DNA from: Cyanobacteria bacterium FACHB-471
GTDB taxonomy: Bacteria > Cyanobacteriota > Cyanobacteriia > Elainellales > Elainellaceae
Length of the DNA: 64,000 nt
Assembly (NCBI GenBank): GCA_014695345.1
Contig: JACJOC010000115.1
Location: 62,001-126,000 of the forward strand
Reading direction: 5' to 3'
This document shows, piece by piece, positions 6,732 to 57,491 of this stretch. A program made the position numbers and the translations under genes. The notes beneath the pieces are model-generated. The model worked only from the letters and a program-made list of their open reading frames with translations, was not told the DNA's origin and ran no database searches. Position 1 is the first letter of the stretch. The number at the start of each line of letters is the position of its first letter.

Positions 6732-7334
6732 GTGGCTAAGAAAGATCCTTATCGAGAATTTTTACAAAAAGACTTTGGTGAATTGTTTGAAAATCTGGAG
6801 CTAAAGGATCGTCAAAAACACTATTTGCGATCGCGCTGGCTTGACCAAATTCTTTGGATGGAAGGACGCGCCGGACGAGCGCGTGACCTTTATTACAGGC
6901 TTCGTTTGACGACCATTATTGGTGGTGTAATCATTCCAGCGTTAGTCAGTTTAAGCAGCGTCAGTGCGGGCATCCTTAACCCCGGCAATCCAGAAACGAA
7001 TCAAACCAACTCAGCTCTCTATATTCGAGATGCGATTAGCTGGTCTGCTTTTGTGCTGAGTCAAGTCGTGGCGATCAGCGCTGCAACTGAACAATTTTTT
7101 AACTATGGCGATCGGTGGCGCAACTACAGACGCAGCGTAGAATCCCTCAAAACCCAGGGCTGGCAATTTTTTGAATTGAGTGGACCCTACCTGCCCTACA
7201 AAACTCACGAAGAGGCTTTTAACGTCTTTGCTAGCCAGGTCGAGCAAATTATTCAGCAAGATGTAGAAATTTATGCCACACAAATTACTCAACCTAAAGG
7301 GGTAAAAGACGAAGAAGACGAAGCAGCATCGTAA
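6732..7334 (+). CDS. SLATT-domain (DUF4231) two-TM membrane effector
   Basis: A 200-aa protein. The segment YLRSRWLDQILWMEGRAGRA matches the conserved pre-membrane helix of DUF4231/SLATT proteins. Two hydrophobic helices follow (about residues 57-80, TTIIGGVIIPALVSLSSV, and 100-122, AISWSAFVLSQVVAIS), then a cytosolic FFNYGDRWRNYRRSVESLK helix and an acidic tail. SLATT domains are predicted to permeabilise membranes when triggered by an upstream nucleotide sensor. The GTG start is 3 bp after the SLOG stop, and the ribosome site AAGGAG overlaps that stop, so the pair should be translationally coupled. The downstream hairpin at 7446 could end the transcript. Confidence 0.87.
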   Translation: MAKKDPYREFLQKDFGELFENLELKDRQKHYLRSRWLDQILWMEGRAGRARDLYYRLRLTTIIGGVIIPALVSLSSVSAGILNPGNPETNQTNSALYIRDAISWSAFVLSQVVAISAATEQFFNYGDRWRNYRRSVESLKTQGWQFFELSGPYLPYKTHEEAFNVFASQVEQIIQQDVEIYATQITQPKGVKDEEDEAAS

Positions 7335-7445
7335 GTTAACCCAACAGCAGATACTAACGTTTGCAATCATCAGGTGTGGACTAATTAGACAGCCTAAATT
7401 AGCTGAGCGATCGCCATCAAAACTTCAGTTTTGCATTAGTAAAGA

Positions 7446-7475
7446 AAAACCCCGAAGAGTTAACTTCGGGGTTTT
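7446..7475 (-). terminator. Rho-independent terminator hairpin, repeat copy 1
   Basis: A 12-bp stem (AAAACCCCGAAG / CTTCGGGGTTTT) surrounds a 6-nt loop. Read on the minus strand it is followed by a T-rich tail. On the plus strand it is followed only by TTTTAATC, so it could also stop the SLOG-SLATT transcript, though less strongly. Confidence 0.8.
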
Positions 7476-7541
7476 AATCAGGGTGCATCTACCATTCCTC
7501 TATACCAATTGAAGAGGGTAAATCCGGAGACTCCTTAAGAT

Positions 7542-7637
7542 TTATCTAGTCTTTGTAAAATTATCCAGGAAGCATCGTATTTCTCGATCTGTACTCAGCA
7601 TTCCTACTTCCTGAAGCATATCAAAGTAAGTTTTCAT
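7542..7637 (-). CDS. Candidate 31-codon micro-ORF in repeat copy 1
   Basis: From an ATG just after the terminator of the next repeat unit, the minus strand encodes 31 residues starting MKTYFDMLQEV and ending DREIRCFLDNFTKTR. The pattern (L)STDREIRCFLDN vaguely recalls the N-terminal helix of TrpR/YerC-like regulators, which would continue with a DNA-binding part absent here. No ribosome site is evident. The second repeat keeps the last 25 codons but has ACG instead of this ATG. It may be a real micropeptide, a remnant of a larger gene, or chance coding inside an sRNA unit. Confidence 0.3.
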   Translation of the reverse strand: MKTYFDMLQEVGMLSTDREIRCFLDNFTKTR

Positions 7638-7649
7638 TATCAAAAAAGA

Positions 7650-7679
7650 AAAACCCCGAAGAGTTAACTTCGGGGTTTT
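7650..7679 (-). terminator. Rho-independent terminator hairpin, repeat copy 2
   Basis: Identical stem and loop to the hairpin 204 bp to its left. On the minus strand it is followed by T5-C-T6, a strong termination tail. It sits immediately upstream (minus sense) of the 31-codon ORF in copy 1. Confidence 0.85.
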
Positions 7680-7745
7680 AATCAGGGTGCATCTACCATT
7701 CCTCTATACCAATTGAAGAGGGTAAATCCGGAGACTCCTTGAGAT

Positions 7746-7823
7746 TTATCTAGTCTTTGTAAAATTATCCAGGAAGCATCGTATTTCTCGATCTGTACTC
7801 AGCATTCCTACTTCCTGAAGCAT
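7746..7823 (-). CDS. Candidate 25-codon micro-ORF in repeat copy 2
   Basis: The same frame as in copy 1, starting at the internal Met (MLQEVGMLSTDRE...). All 25 codons and the stop are identical to copy 1; the three differences between the units fall outside this stretch. That is suggestive but too few changes to prove selection. Confidence 0.25.
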   Translation of the reverse strand: MLQEVGMLSTDREIRCFLDNFTKTR

Positions 7824-7853
7824 ATCAAAGTAAGTTTCCGTTATCAAAAAAGA

Positions 7854-7883
7854 AAAACCCCGAAGAGTTAACTTCGGGGTTTT
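7854..7883 (-). terminator. Rho-independent terminator hairpin, repeat copy 3
   Basis: Third identical hairpin, again with T5-C-T6 on the minus strand. It isolates repeat copy 2 from anything transcribed leftward out of the cobM upstream region. Confidence 0.85.
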
Positions 7884-8029
7884 AATCAGGGTGCATCTAC
7901 CATTCCTCTATACCGATCGGGCGAGTCTGATCCGGAAGCATTTATGCAGTTTATGGTTCCTTAGAAGAAGTTCATGTTGGCTTTAAAGTAGAATTGCTGA
8001 ACGACCTGGATTTGAGGACTGTAGGTTTG

Positions 8030-8863
8030 ATGACTGTTGCTAAAGCTGTTGTGGATGTCGATGAACTCAATGCACCGGATGCTCATGTGCTCACACCAGG
8101 TGTGTATATTGTCGGTGCTGGTCCGGGTGATCCAGATCTGTTAACGGTAAAAGCGCAAAAGCTGTTGGCTCGGGCAGATGTAGTTGTGTTTGCGGATTCA
8201 CTGGTGCCCAGGCAAATTCTGCAAATCGTGCGTCCTGATGCGGAAGTCGTGCGGACGGCAGATAAGACGCTGGAGGAAATTTTGCCGCTGATGGTGGAAC
8301 GGGTGCGATCGCACAAATCCGTCATTCGTCTCCACTCTGGTGACCCGACGCTATACGGTGCCGTTCACGAGCAAATGCAGGCGCTAGCAGCGGCAGAAAT
8401 TCCGTTTGAGGTGATTCCGGGCATCAGCGCATTTCAGGCAGCGGCGGCAAAGCTGAAGGTTGAGTTGACTGTGCCCGGACTGGTGCAAACGATCATCCTG
8501 ACCCGGATTAGCGGACGCACTCAGGTGCCAGAGGCAGAGGAATTGGCATCCTTAGCCACTCATCAAGCAAGCCTGTGTCTGTATCTCAGTGCGCGACACA
8601 TTCAAGCAGCTGAAGCAAAGTTGTTGCAGCACTATCCAGCAGATACTCCAGTTGCGGTATGTTTTCGCATAGGTTGGCCAGACGAGAAAATTTGGATTGT
8701 GCCGCTCGACCAGATAGCAGCTGTGACCGAGCAGGAGAAGCTGATCCGGACGACGATGTATTTAATCAGTCCGGCATTAAGAGGGGTAGATGGACAGGGG
8801 GAAGGTGTAGAAGCGCGATCGCGCCTCTATAACCCAGAGCATTCTCACCTGTTTCGTCCTTAA
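8030..8863 (+). CDS. cobM: Precorrin-4 / cobalt-precorrin-4 C11-methyltransferase
   Basis: An S-adenosylmethionine-dependent methyltransferase of corrin-ring synthesis that methylates C11 of precorrin-4 in the cobalamin pathway. Characteristic blocks are VYIVGAGPGDPDLLTVKAQ (SAM-binding GAGPGD), VVVFADSLVP, LHSGDPTLYGAVHEQM, VIPGISAFQAAAA and TTMYLISPAL. The ATG at 8030 gives 277 aa, close to the family length. The frame remains open upstream to 7931 but without ATG or GTG until TTG 7994. The upstream DNA is the broken edge of the 204-bp repeat array, so the true leader may have been rearranged. No cobalamin riboswitch fits in the short leader. Confidence 0.93.
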   Translation: MTVAKAVVDVDELNAPDAHVLTPGVYIVGAGPGDPDLLTVKAQKLLARADVVVFADSLVPRQILQIVRPDAEVVRTADKTLEEILPLMVERVRSHKSVIRLHSGDPTLYGAVHEQMQALAAAEIPFEVIPGISAFQAAAAKLKVELTVPGLVQTIILTRISGRTQVPEAEELASLATHQASLCLYLSARHIQAAEAKLLQHYPADTPVAVCFRIGWPDEKIWIVPLDQIAAVTEQEKLIRTTMYLISPALRGVDGQGEGVEARSRLYNPEHSHLFRP

Positions 8864-55084: not shown

Positions 55085-55882
55085 TTATTTCTCCCCCAGA
55101 CCAGGCAGAACGCGATCGCAAAAAAATAGCGTTCCAGCCGTGACACAAAGCGGGATTGCCAGCAGGTTAATTAGGGGAATGCTGACTAGTCCTAAGCAAA
55201 CCAGCCCAAAGCTGGCACTGGCAGGAAAGTTTCGAGCCACAATGCTCAACTTAGTACGAAACCGAAATCGTCGGCGTTCCAAAGCTGGGTCTAAAAAGTC
55301 GAGACAGACAATTGTGGCTGCTAGGGCAATGCCGCCAACGGTAGCGACTACGGTTCCCACTCCGGGCGCAAAGTTGAGTAGCAGGAGTGGTAGAGCAATC
55401 GCTGCTGTTAGAGCTAGTTTTTTGAGTTCAAAGGCGATCGCCCGCCAAATCTCTACAAAAATTCCTCCAACGCCCCCTGGTGGAGTTACCGTGTGCCCAG
55501 TGCGTAGCTGCTCTAGCTCTTCAGATAGTTTGCCGTACCACGGGGACCCCAGCAGCACGCCAAACTGAAGCAGCACAAATCCGGTGAGCAAAAACAGCAG
55601 AATCGTTAGCAACACCCGCAAAACAACATCCAGGAAAGCAGCCCAGGTAGGTAAATTCTGGATTGCAGCATCAATTCCCTGGAAGCCAGCAAACAGTAGT
55701 CCGGCGTAAAGAGTGCCGCCTACAATCAGGTTTACCAGAATTGGCACCAACACATAGCCCCGCAGCTTTGGCGTTTTTCCCAGGAGTGAGAAGGCGCGAA
55801 AGGGATAGGTTGCACCTGCAAATAGCCCACCTGGAGCTCGGACAATCGGCGAATCTGACCCTGGCTTAGATTTTGCTGCCAT
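55085..55882 (-). CDS. EI24/CysZ-like membrane protein
   Basis: A 265-aa integral membrane protein of the EI24 domain family, which includes the CysZ sulfate transporter and eukaryotic EI24. Visible are GATYPFRAFSLLGKTPKLRG YVLVP at the start, several TM helices (VDVVLRVLLTILLFLLTGFV-like LRVLLTILLFLLTGFVLLQF), SPWYGKLSEELEQLRTG, and the C-terminal FGLVCLGLVSIPLINLLAIP. Sulfate uptake is one possibility, since the window also encodes ATP sulfurylase, but the position gives no direct support. It starts at ATG 55882. Confidence 0.85.
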   Translation of the reverse strand: MAAKSKPGSDSPIVRAPGGLFAGATYPFRAFSLLGKTPKLRGYVLVPILVNLIVGGTLYAGLLFAGFQGIDAAIQNLPTWAAFLDVVLRVLLTILLFLLTGFVLLQFGVLLGSPWYGKLSEELEQLRTGHTVTPPGGVGGIFVEIWRAIAFELKKLALTAAIALPLLLLNFAPGVGTVVATVGGIALAATIVCLDFLDPALERRRFRFRTKLSIVARNFPASASFGLVCLGLVSIPLINLLAIPLCVTAGTLFFCDRVLPGLGEK

Positions 55883-55921
55883 CAGTAGCTTGAGATTTAG
55901 CGTGAAATAGAAGTGCGAGAG

Positions 55922-56105
55922 CTAGCTTTCATGACTGAGCATTTTGACAATGTGCTTAGCAAGCTGTTCCTTGATTTCTCGGGTCCTTGGAATAGGTTGA
56001 GATATTTTCGTTTTTGGATTCTGATACCAGTCGTGCTTGCCACCATGACGAATAAATATACACCCCATTTCTTCAAGGTGTTTGAATCAAATCTCGTCTT
56101 TTCAC
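55922..56105 (-). pseudogene. hicA: hicA toxin gene broken by a one-base insertion
   Basis: Starting at GTG 56105, the frame reads VKRRDLIQ and then hits a stop. If one base at about 56081 is skipped, the frame continues HLEEMGCIFIRHGGKHDWYQ, NPKTKISQPIPRTREIKEQL and AKHIVKMLSHES to a TAG at 55922, a complete HicA mRNA-interferase with the catalytic His in RHGGKH. The GTG overlaps the hicB stop (GTGA), the standard hicBA arrangement. The toxin is thus almost certainly inactive unless the extra base is a sequence error or is bypassed by frameshifting. Confidence 0.85.
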
Positions 56106-56287
56106 GATACTTCAAGTTCAGCCACTCTTCGGACATTGGAGAGCGCTCCACCTGTTAATTCTTTGTAGATGTCAGCTAAGTTTTCCTTCAATTCGTTCTC
56201 GGTTTCCGCCTGAGTCCAGTAGTCTGGATACTCCTCTAGATAACCAAGCCACATCTCCTCATCTTGCCAGTAAACATACTTTTTAAT
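56102..56287 (-). pseudogene. hicB: hicB antitoxin gene with ATT at the expected start codon
   Basis: Sixty-one codons encode KKYVYWQDEEMWLGYLEEYP, DYWTQAETENELKENLADIY and KELTGGALSNVRRVAELEVS, a full-length short-form HicB antitoxin. No ATG, GTG or TTG precedes the conserved block. The codon where Met is expected (56287-56285) is ATT. The only canonical in-frame start is the internal ATG before WLGY, which would remove strand one. The antitoxin gene has therefore probably lost efficient expression, in keeping with the frameshifted toxin beside it. Confidence 0.75.
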
Positions 56288-56387
56288 TGTCCTAGGGGAA
56301 CGACTTATAAGTTTCTTCGACTATGCTGGCCATCTTATCAAACTAGGCAATCCTGTTTGCCACTCCAGAGCCAAGGAGATTGTCAAT

Positions 56388-56417
56388 TCCGGACGGCAAT
56401 GTAAGTCACTGTATAAG
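56388..56417 (+). promoter_or_regulatory. DIF-like promoter of patX
   Basis: TCCGGA (56388-56393), the consensus of the DIF motif found near -35 of nitrogen-step-down promoters in Anabaena, is followed 18 bp later by TATAAG (56412-56417) as a -10 element. The predicted start is about 25 nt before the patX ATG. Confidence 0.6.
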
Positions 56418-56448
56418 GGAGCGGAAGCTTATATAGGTAACTTCTTTT

Positions 56449-56667
56449 ATGCGCGTTCTCACCTTCGCTATGCTGTCTGGGCTAATGCTCATGGGGCTAA
56501 CGGTTAATCAGGGGGTTATCTCGCGCTCGGCTGAGCTAAGTCCTGCTAGCTCAGATCACCACTTTGTTGTGCAGGACGGACATCGACGCGAAAGAACCTA
56601 TCGGGGGAGCGGTCGCCGGGAGATTTTGGCATTTCCTACCACTTTGCATTCGGTAGAACAGGGATAA
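56449..56667 (+). CDS. patX: PatX-like secreted RGSGR pentapeptide precursor
   Basis: A 72-aa peptide. The N-terminus is hydrophobic (LTFAMLSGLMLMGLTVNQGV), as in a signal or export segment. The C-terminal part reads RRERTYRGSGRREILAF, with RGSGR at residues 52-56. RGSGR is the HetR-inhibiting pentapeptide of PatS and HetN. PatX proteins (hydrophobic N-terminus plus C-terminal RG(S/T)GR) are widespread in filamentous cyanobacteria that have HetR, including some that make no heterocysts. The gene is preceded by a DIF-type promoter. I infer a diffusible inhibitor of HetR; whether this organism differentiates heterocysts cannot be told from the window. Confidence 0.87.
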   Translation: MRVLTFAMLSGLMLMGLTVNQGVISRSAELSPASSDHHFVVQDGHRRERTYRGSGRREILAFPTTLHSVEQG

Positions 56668-56706
56668 AATTCTACTTCTGTGCATTCACTCGTAAATTGA
56701 CTATAG

Positions 56707-56730
56707 AACAAGGGGCTTAAACCCCTTGTT
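56707..56730. terminator. Hairpin between patX and the next gene
   Basis: AACAAGGGG / CCCCTTGTT arms with a 6-nt loop, 40 bp after the patX stop and 45 bp from the end of the convergent gene. T tails are weak on both sides. It may be a terminator or one of the AAGGGG-TTTAAA-type cyanobacterial repeats. Confidence 0.55.
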
Positions 56731-56774
56731 TAGTTAAGCCCGTGTTACGGTACTGCATCTAGCAACTGTTACAT

Positions 56775-57491
56775 CTATCGATGCCTAAGTGAAAATCGCC
56801 TCACTTCATTAGCAGTTTCCTTGCGTAAATTCATTAGCTCAAGTCCAAATAGCTCTTGCCACACCACATTAATGGGCATTAGCGTCCCTCCTTTTGCACC
56901 GATAGCGGGATATTCATCATTTGGACGCTCTTCTAAGACAATCCAGTTTCCTTTTACTCTGTGCCGGATAACCTCTCCCACATAGCCAACCAGATTGTCA
57001 TACAGTTCAGCTTGAACATTTTCAAGTCCATATTCTTCCGCTTTCCTGGATAAGATATCCAAGCTTTTGTATGAGAAATCTAGCTGATCGTGTGAAATGC
57101 TCCAACATCTTGCTAGCTTATCAATCAGCTCGGAGAGCTGGTTGATAAGCTGTGCTTTGTGTTTTGAGTAATATCTCCAATGATCTACAGAACTTTGGCG
57201 ACCGTCAATTGCGTCTTCTTCAACTTTCTGTTTAAGTCGAATCAGTCGTAAAAGATAGTCTTTGGAGTAAATGTCCCCTCTACCGGGAATTGAAACTTCT
57301 TTAGGATCAAAGACGAATAAAAACCTATCATTTGACAGCTCATAGACTAGAGGCTGATCCTTGTATCCACTGCTGTATGTTGTTTCAAGGGATTTTGTAA
57401 ACTCTTCATGCAGTTTCCCTTCAGATTCTATTAGTTCTTGAACCTGCTTTTTGGTGAGTCGTTTTGCATTGAGAGTTTGTTTCTTTCCCAT
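56775..57491 (-). CDS. Hypothetical protein, family not recognised
   Basis: A 238-aa soluble protein without signal peptide or TM segment. The N-terminus is Lys-rich (KRLTKKQVQELIESEGKLHE), the middle charged and helical. The C-terminal part, LYDNLVGYVGEVIRHRVKGN WIVLEERPNDEYPAIGAKGG, looks like a small alpha/beta domain shared by some bacterial immunity-type and DUF proteins that begin with a helix followed by GEVI-(R)-G-W. This is a weak impression. It lies 41 bp upstream of the polA 3' end, in the same direction, between polA and patX. Codon use is more AT-rich than its neighbours. Confidence 0.65.
   Translation of the reverse strand: MGKKQTLNAKRLTKKQVQELIESEGKLHEEFTKSLETTYSSGYKDQPLVYELSNDRFLFVFDPKEVSIPGRGDIYSKDYLLRLIRLKQKVEEDAIDGRQSSVDHWRYYSKHKAQLINQLSELIDKLARCWSISHDQLDFSYKSLDILSRKAEEYGLENVQAELYDNLVGYVGEVIRHRVKGNWIVLEERPNDEYPAIGAKGGTLMPINVVWQELFGLELMNLRKETANEVRRFSLRHR

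Follow-up and report, generated by a model that had tools for sequence, protein, structure and literature searches.

A stand-alone patX-type gene behind a TCCGGA promoter probably encodes a second PatX precursor in Cyanobacteria bacterium FACHB-471

The window analyzed here is a 64,000-nt stretch of DNA (G000:C19:62001-126000) from a 7.15-Mb genome that is 99.87% complete. On its forward strand, at 56449..56667, it carries a stand-alone patX-type gene, here called patX2, whose 72-aa product (MRVLTFAMLSGLMLMGLTVNQGVISRSAELSPASSDHHFVVQDGHRRERTYRGSGRREILAFPTTLHSVEQG) begins with MRVLTFAMLSGLMLMGLTV and ends with TYRGSGRREILAFPTTLHSVEQG. Codons 56455..56505 (+) specify a hydrophobic N-terminal segment of about residues 3-19 (Kyte-Doolittle maximum of 2.08 in a 15-residue window, residues 3-17), which is Sec-signal-like and is a putative export signal. 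The RGSGR pentapeptide, encoded at 56602..56616 (+) and invariant in alignment A2, comprises residues 52-56, so that 16 residues follow it. The residue just before it is Y, the corresponding residue of the tested hexapeptide being H, and the tail after it, RREILAF, is kept in other lineages. In all 14 rows of alignment A4 the pentapeptide is followed by R-[EAQK]-[ILVM]-[LVMI], a signature that is not exclusive, in that it fits some hetR-linked genes (L107, L112) and does not fit some genes of family f32. A terminator-like hairpin, identified by consensus match only, lies 3′ of the gene (56711..56727, +). The sequence-only reading of this locus had described the 72-aa product with its hydrophobic N terminus and RGSGR near the C terminus, and every coordinate was correct.

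To determine how widely patX2 is conserved, we searched other cyanobacterial genomes. Matches (E ≤ 0.01) were found in 9 of the 98 genomes searched, own genome included, one of which (G062) differs in its promoter motif (TCCTGA). A profile of the 8 window-type proteins scored below 1e-29 in the same 8 of 388 genomes. These represent four genera (three genomes of the own genus, one from each of two further genera in that family, and three from a single genus of another family) and include the MAGs Leptolyngbyaceae cyanobacterium SM1_4_3, RM1_406_9, and SL_7_1 and Leptolyngbya sp. DLM2.Bin15. Kinship to the Leptolyngbyaceae MAGs suggests that the organism is filamentous, as had been claimed from the DNA alone. 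TCCGGA was present 209 to 214 nt 5′ of the RGSGR codons in all eight window-type genes, own gene included, although three of the eight are almost the same sequence. Among three congeneric species, dN/dS for patX2 was 0.14, 0.32, and 0.29, with 14 to 19 changes each. Judged by such comparison, patX2 is confirmed as a real gene under selection.

The promoter region of patX2 contains the DIF1 motif TCCGGA at the −35 position (56388..56393, +) and a −10 box, TATAAG (56412..56417, +), separated by 18 nt. The ATG lies 61 nt downstream of the start of TCCGGA; Elhai and Khudyakov reportedly described in 2018 a DIF1 motif within 69 nt upstream of patX. The window contains four instances of TCCGGA-N17..19-TATA where 0.13 would be expected; 0 of 100 shuffles reached four, and the three other sites precede copies of the small RNA NsiR1. 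TCCGGA by itself is no commoner than expected (11 observed in the window, 13.88 expected).

The NsiR1 genes provide an independent placement of the DIF motif. The three window copies, each scoring 53.9 bits against Rfam RF02399, whose gathering score is 39, are on the reverse strand at 7850..7902 (TCCGGA at 7931-7936), 7646..7698 (TCCGGA at 7727-7732), and 7442..7494 (TCCGGA at 7523-7528), forming a 204-base tandem repeat over 7442-7902. Each stands behind TCCGGA-N18-TATA, and the array is flanked by a 200-aa ORF (6732-7334) and an ORF at 7994-8863 that is precorrin-methylase-like (named by eye). Nostoc PCC 7120 has 12 tandem NsiR1 copies with DIF1 promoters upstream of hetF (PMC9045159, in extract), whereas the window copies have other neighbor genes. 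The own genome has 11 NsiR1 matches, 8 of them above the gathering score; in all eight (L327-L334), TCC(G/T)GA starts 34 nt before the Rfam match, as TCCGGA in five and TCCTGA in three, and the three weak matches have no TCC(G/T)GA at that position. Reading 27 copies in other genomes gave TCCGGA in 21, TCCTGA in 5, and neither form at −34 or −35 in 1. NsiR1 exceeds the cutoff in 200 of the 388 genomes of the class.

Measured by this yardstick, patX2 has a DIF1-type promoter, with TCCGGA near −35 and a −10 box in the same geometry as the own NsiR1 genes, which bears out the promoter assignment made from sequence alone. The two share a promoter type, but NsiR1 is a small RNA and not a peptide gene. 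The 34-nt distance from DIF motif to NsiR1 in this genome leads to a predicted patX2 transcription start near 56422. Because the own NsiR1 genes use both motif forms at the same distance, TCCTGA is, by position, a DIF variant. The nitrogen-step-down control that the sequence-only reading expected gained no support: the nearest NtcA-type GTA-N8-TAC in the 64,000-nt window is 1.4 kb upstream of patX2, and nifD has no match over the cutoff in the own genome (43.2 versus 653.55 bits). A GTA-N8-TAT that overlaps the −10 box was rejected as an NtcA-type site, as it is not kept in G002.

That reading had also named hetR and other RGSGR genes as the things to look for, and an absence of hetR as grounds for discarding it; both kinds of gene were found, so the reading survives this check. 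The genome has one hetR (a single HetR_C match, 151.7 bits, 3.0e-44), whose product aligns with the solved HetR structures of Anabaena and Fischerella over 294 residues (565 and 560.8 bits, respectively). R223, numbered from what we take to be the start of Anabaena HetR, is retained in an alignment read by eye. This residue is required for PatS binding (PMC7476756, in extract). On a different contig from patX2, another patX-type gene (L001:151-351) precedes hetR by about 0.5 kb. Its reading frame is open, with 83% identity in two sister species. The 66-aa product contains HRGSGR and has the C terminus HRGSGRRDTAQCA, and TCCTGA stands upstream. As hetR already has a patX-type gene beside it, patX2 counts as a second patX, standing alone. 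The assignment to PatX thus stood insofar as patX2 encodes a PatX-type protein in a genome with hetR, but the patX beside hetR is a different gene. A hetR-linked patX also accompanies the stand-alone gene in seven of the eight window-type genomes; in the remaining one, G088, this hetR-linked-type protein is encoded at a contig end (L244). In other families, a hetR-linked TCCTGA gene is combined with a TCCGGA gene elsewhere in G044, G047, G092, G153, G176, G328, and G382. The RGSGR pattern used on the own genome, which omits AGA/AGG arginine codons and most threonine codons, gave 32 matches, of which 30 were read; a third RGSGR gene could exist beyond those 30. Profile A4, which like A2 re-finds the sequences it was built from, matches 62 of 388 genomes and detects linked and unlinked patX alike; 60 of the 62 also have a HetR_C match, and the exceptions (G130, G172) are among the weakest matches. 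HetR is found in 194 of the 388 genomes of the class.

To examine the two motif forms more widely, we scored as hetR-linked any RG(S/T)GR frame that precedes hetR by no more than 1.6 kb in the same orientation. TCCTGA occupied the DIF position in 73 of 73 distinct scorable loci, a count that leaves aside hetR loci without such an upstream frame, short loci undecidable by tblastn, and frames of >300 aa. It lies 90 to 330 nt 5′ of the pentapeptide codons, usually about 18 to 20 nt before TATCA or TAACA; one of the 73 loci, L159, has an additional TCCGGA inside the frame. The hetR loci without the frame include those of G015, G038, G045, G052, G054, G057, G062, G070, G075, G218, G318, G338, G368, G377, six f32 genomes, and G088, whose hetR contig begins at the locus; G012, at a contig start, is outside the count. 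Several hetR-linked PatX precursors carry multiple pentapeptides, like tandem peptide precursors, with eight RG(S/T)GR motifs in L239 (G200), four in L145, L148, L248, L252, L258, L259, and L260, and three in L141, L157, and L246.

In family f32, which we guess to be heterocyst formers, patX is located off hetR and has TCCGGA in 12 of 12 genes read, and none of the six f32 hetR loci read has an RGSGR frame upstream. TCCTGA also occurs at patX genes off hetR, in G062 (L194, an orthologue by synteny), G038 (L044), and G218 (L229); the off-hetR genes of G054 (L211) and G070 (L210) have TCCTGA plus a TCCGGA farther up. It is likewise found at patX genes of undecided linkage (G106, G114, G116, G313 on C156, and L244 of G088). 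TCC(G/T)GA was not within reach of the genes in G338 (L205), G368 (L220), G343 (L206), and G302 (L212). These data weaken the idea that TCCTGA and TCCGGA mark two regulatory classes. Since both forms occur in NsiR1 of one genome, the G/T difference may be tuning only. Family f20 (G054, G070, G083, G106, G116) has a divergent HetR (E about 1e-27), and its patX genes have TCCTGA followed by (C)AGAAGGAAG or GAAAGAAGG in place of TATCA.

We compared patX2 with known RGSGR proteins. PatX of Nostoc/Anabaena PCC 7120 and of other HetR-containing cyanobacteria is likewise short, with a hydrophobic N terminus, RG(S/T)GR near the C terminus, and a DIF1 promoter. The patX gene of PCC 7120 is not known to be adjacent to hetR. 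patX2 differs from it in having Y rather than H before the pentapeptide and the RREILAF tail, and its genome differs in having another patX at hetR and no nifD over the cutoff. The hetR-adjacent patX of the own genome has TCCTGA and lies about 0.5 kb from hetR, whereas patX2 sits on another contig between convergent and divergent neighbors with TCCGGA. PatS and HetN have the RGSGR pentapeptide in common with patX2. PatS is a much shorter peptide with RGSGR at its very end, and HetN is much larger and reductase-like. Both were rejected as identities of patX2, which has 72 aa and, compared with PatS, an internal motif. The patX-hetR pair of Leptolyngbya BL0902 (PMC11298460, in extract) encodes a PatX of the same protein plan, and its equivalent in the own genome is L001:151-351. 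By a broad definition (RG(S/T)GR near the C terminus, a hydrophobic N terminus, DIF1 upstream, and hetR in the genome), patX2 is of PatX type, and its peptide would inhibit HetR. It scores 18.9 bits against a curated cutoff of 30 for the equivalog model NF047413 (heterocyst_PatX) and so is not filed under it; the hetR-linked L001:151-351 also falls below the cutoff (19.9), and a match above it was seen in just 1 of 60 genomes. The PatX family is known, and patX2 is a further member of it. In the literature searched, we found no description of TCCTGA as a DIF form, of patX paralogues, or of a PatX pair in which each gene has its own DIF form, any of which Elhai and Khudyakov 2018 may report.

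Neighboring genes provided evidence on the age of the stand-alone locus. The divergent neighbor of patX2 (55085..55882, −) encodes a CysZ/EI24-like membrane protein (PF07264, 147.3 bits). In six genomes of family f13 (L185, L188, L193, L195, L196, L202), a relative of this neighbor, with 49 to 56% identity over the main match, adjoins the patX that is not linked to hetR, divergently in L195. Among 30 cysZ loci read (35 genomes with a match), patX lies beside cysZ in four, three of the own genus plus G047. In G011, G017, G037, G061, G088, G038, and G062, unlinked patX lies tail to tail with a kinase-TPR gene, and these neighbors are 48 to 57% identical between genera. One such gene is L172:8553-10580, with relatives in L173-L176, L117, and L194. 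The kinase-TPR gene may be functionally tied to stand-alone patX. Given these conserved neighbors, cysZ or the kinase-TPR gene, stand-alone patX appears to be an old locus that was lost or moved in many lineages.

We consider it probable that patX2 encodes a second, stand-alone PatX-type precursor that works beside the patX located directly upstream of hetR behind TCCTGA. In Nostoc, PatX is exported and then cleaved by PatP; its hexapeptide HRGTGR has an affinity of 88 nM for HetR, which it displaces from DNA (PMC12756182, in extract). By analogy with this published knowledge, patX2 most likely makes a HetR-inhibiting peptide. patX2 would be transcribed in response to a presumed trigger; its product would be exported as in Nostoc and cut to a peptide, probably around YRGSGR, which would bind and inhibit HetR and so tune a cell decision. 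With no nifD over the cutoff, a heterocyst role is unlikely, and the pattern set by patX2, if any, is probably not that of nitrogen-fixing heterocysts; hormogonium or necridium formation would be our guess.

Some observations point against an action of patX2 on HetR, namely, its low heterocyst_PatX score, the Y before RGSGR, the 16-residue tail, and published transcriptomes of Leptolyngbya BL0902, in which comparison of patX, hetR, and double deletions made the effects of PatX look HetR independent (PMC11298460, in extract). The product could instead be a PatX-type secreted peptide that now acts on a target other than HetR, as suggested for Leptolyngbya PatX, a reading with which the position of patX2 away from hetR and the retention of RREILAF in other lineages are also consistent. 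We regard this as unlikely, because nearly all A4-matched genomes (60/62) also have HetR_C, the pentapeptide (with S or T in the middle) is the invariant part of the protein, and the own HetR keeps R223. It is very unlikely that patX2 is simply the ordinary patX partner of hetR, moved away. The f32 genomes, with patX off hetR behind TCCGGA and hetR loci lacking the upstream frame, provide a precedent, but in the own genome a patX-type gene still directly precedes hetR, as both genes are kept in 7/8 window-type genomes, and this reading is contradicted unless L001:151-351, an open frame, is dead; we therefore rejected it. That patX2 is a chance ORF, a relic, or a regulatory RNA instead of a protein gene, as its small size and the lack of a Pfam match for its protein might suggest, is most improbable and was likewise rejected, given dN/dS values of <0.35, a motif and pentapeptide conserved across two families, no Rfam match over the gathering score at 55800-57000, and an RNA fold z score of only −1.41.

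The preferred reading, that patX2 is a second precursor beside the hetR-linked gene, has consequences for how patX genes are counted and studied. A 2025 survey using trusted HMM cutoffs found hetR without patX in 12.0% of genomes, including a Leptolyngbya (PMC12756182, in extract). Since both patX genes of the own genome fall below the NCBI cutoff, part of this class may be false absences. A patX knockout in a two-PatX strain would similarly be misleading if the second gene were overlooked.

The roles of HetR and PatX in cyanobacteria without heterocysts "remain a mystery" (PMC11298460, in extract), and the two-PatX arrangement is the interesting part of the present finding. Tentatively, and with more doubt than confidence, we suggest a two-inhibitor circuit on one HetR in non-heterocyst filaments, in which a TCCTGA feedback peptide is made with HetR and a TCCGGA peptide is switched separately. 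If this is true, an early patX duplication would have split, with heterocyst lineages keeping the stand-alone TCCGGA copy, most of the others retaining the TCCTGA copy linked to hetR, and a small number, including the own genome, retaining both. A genome in which two PatX genes are intact, each with a different DIF form, would offer a direct way to ask whether the form of the motif sets timing or cell type.
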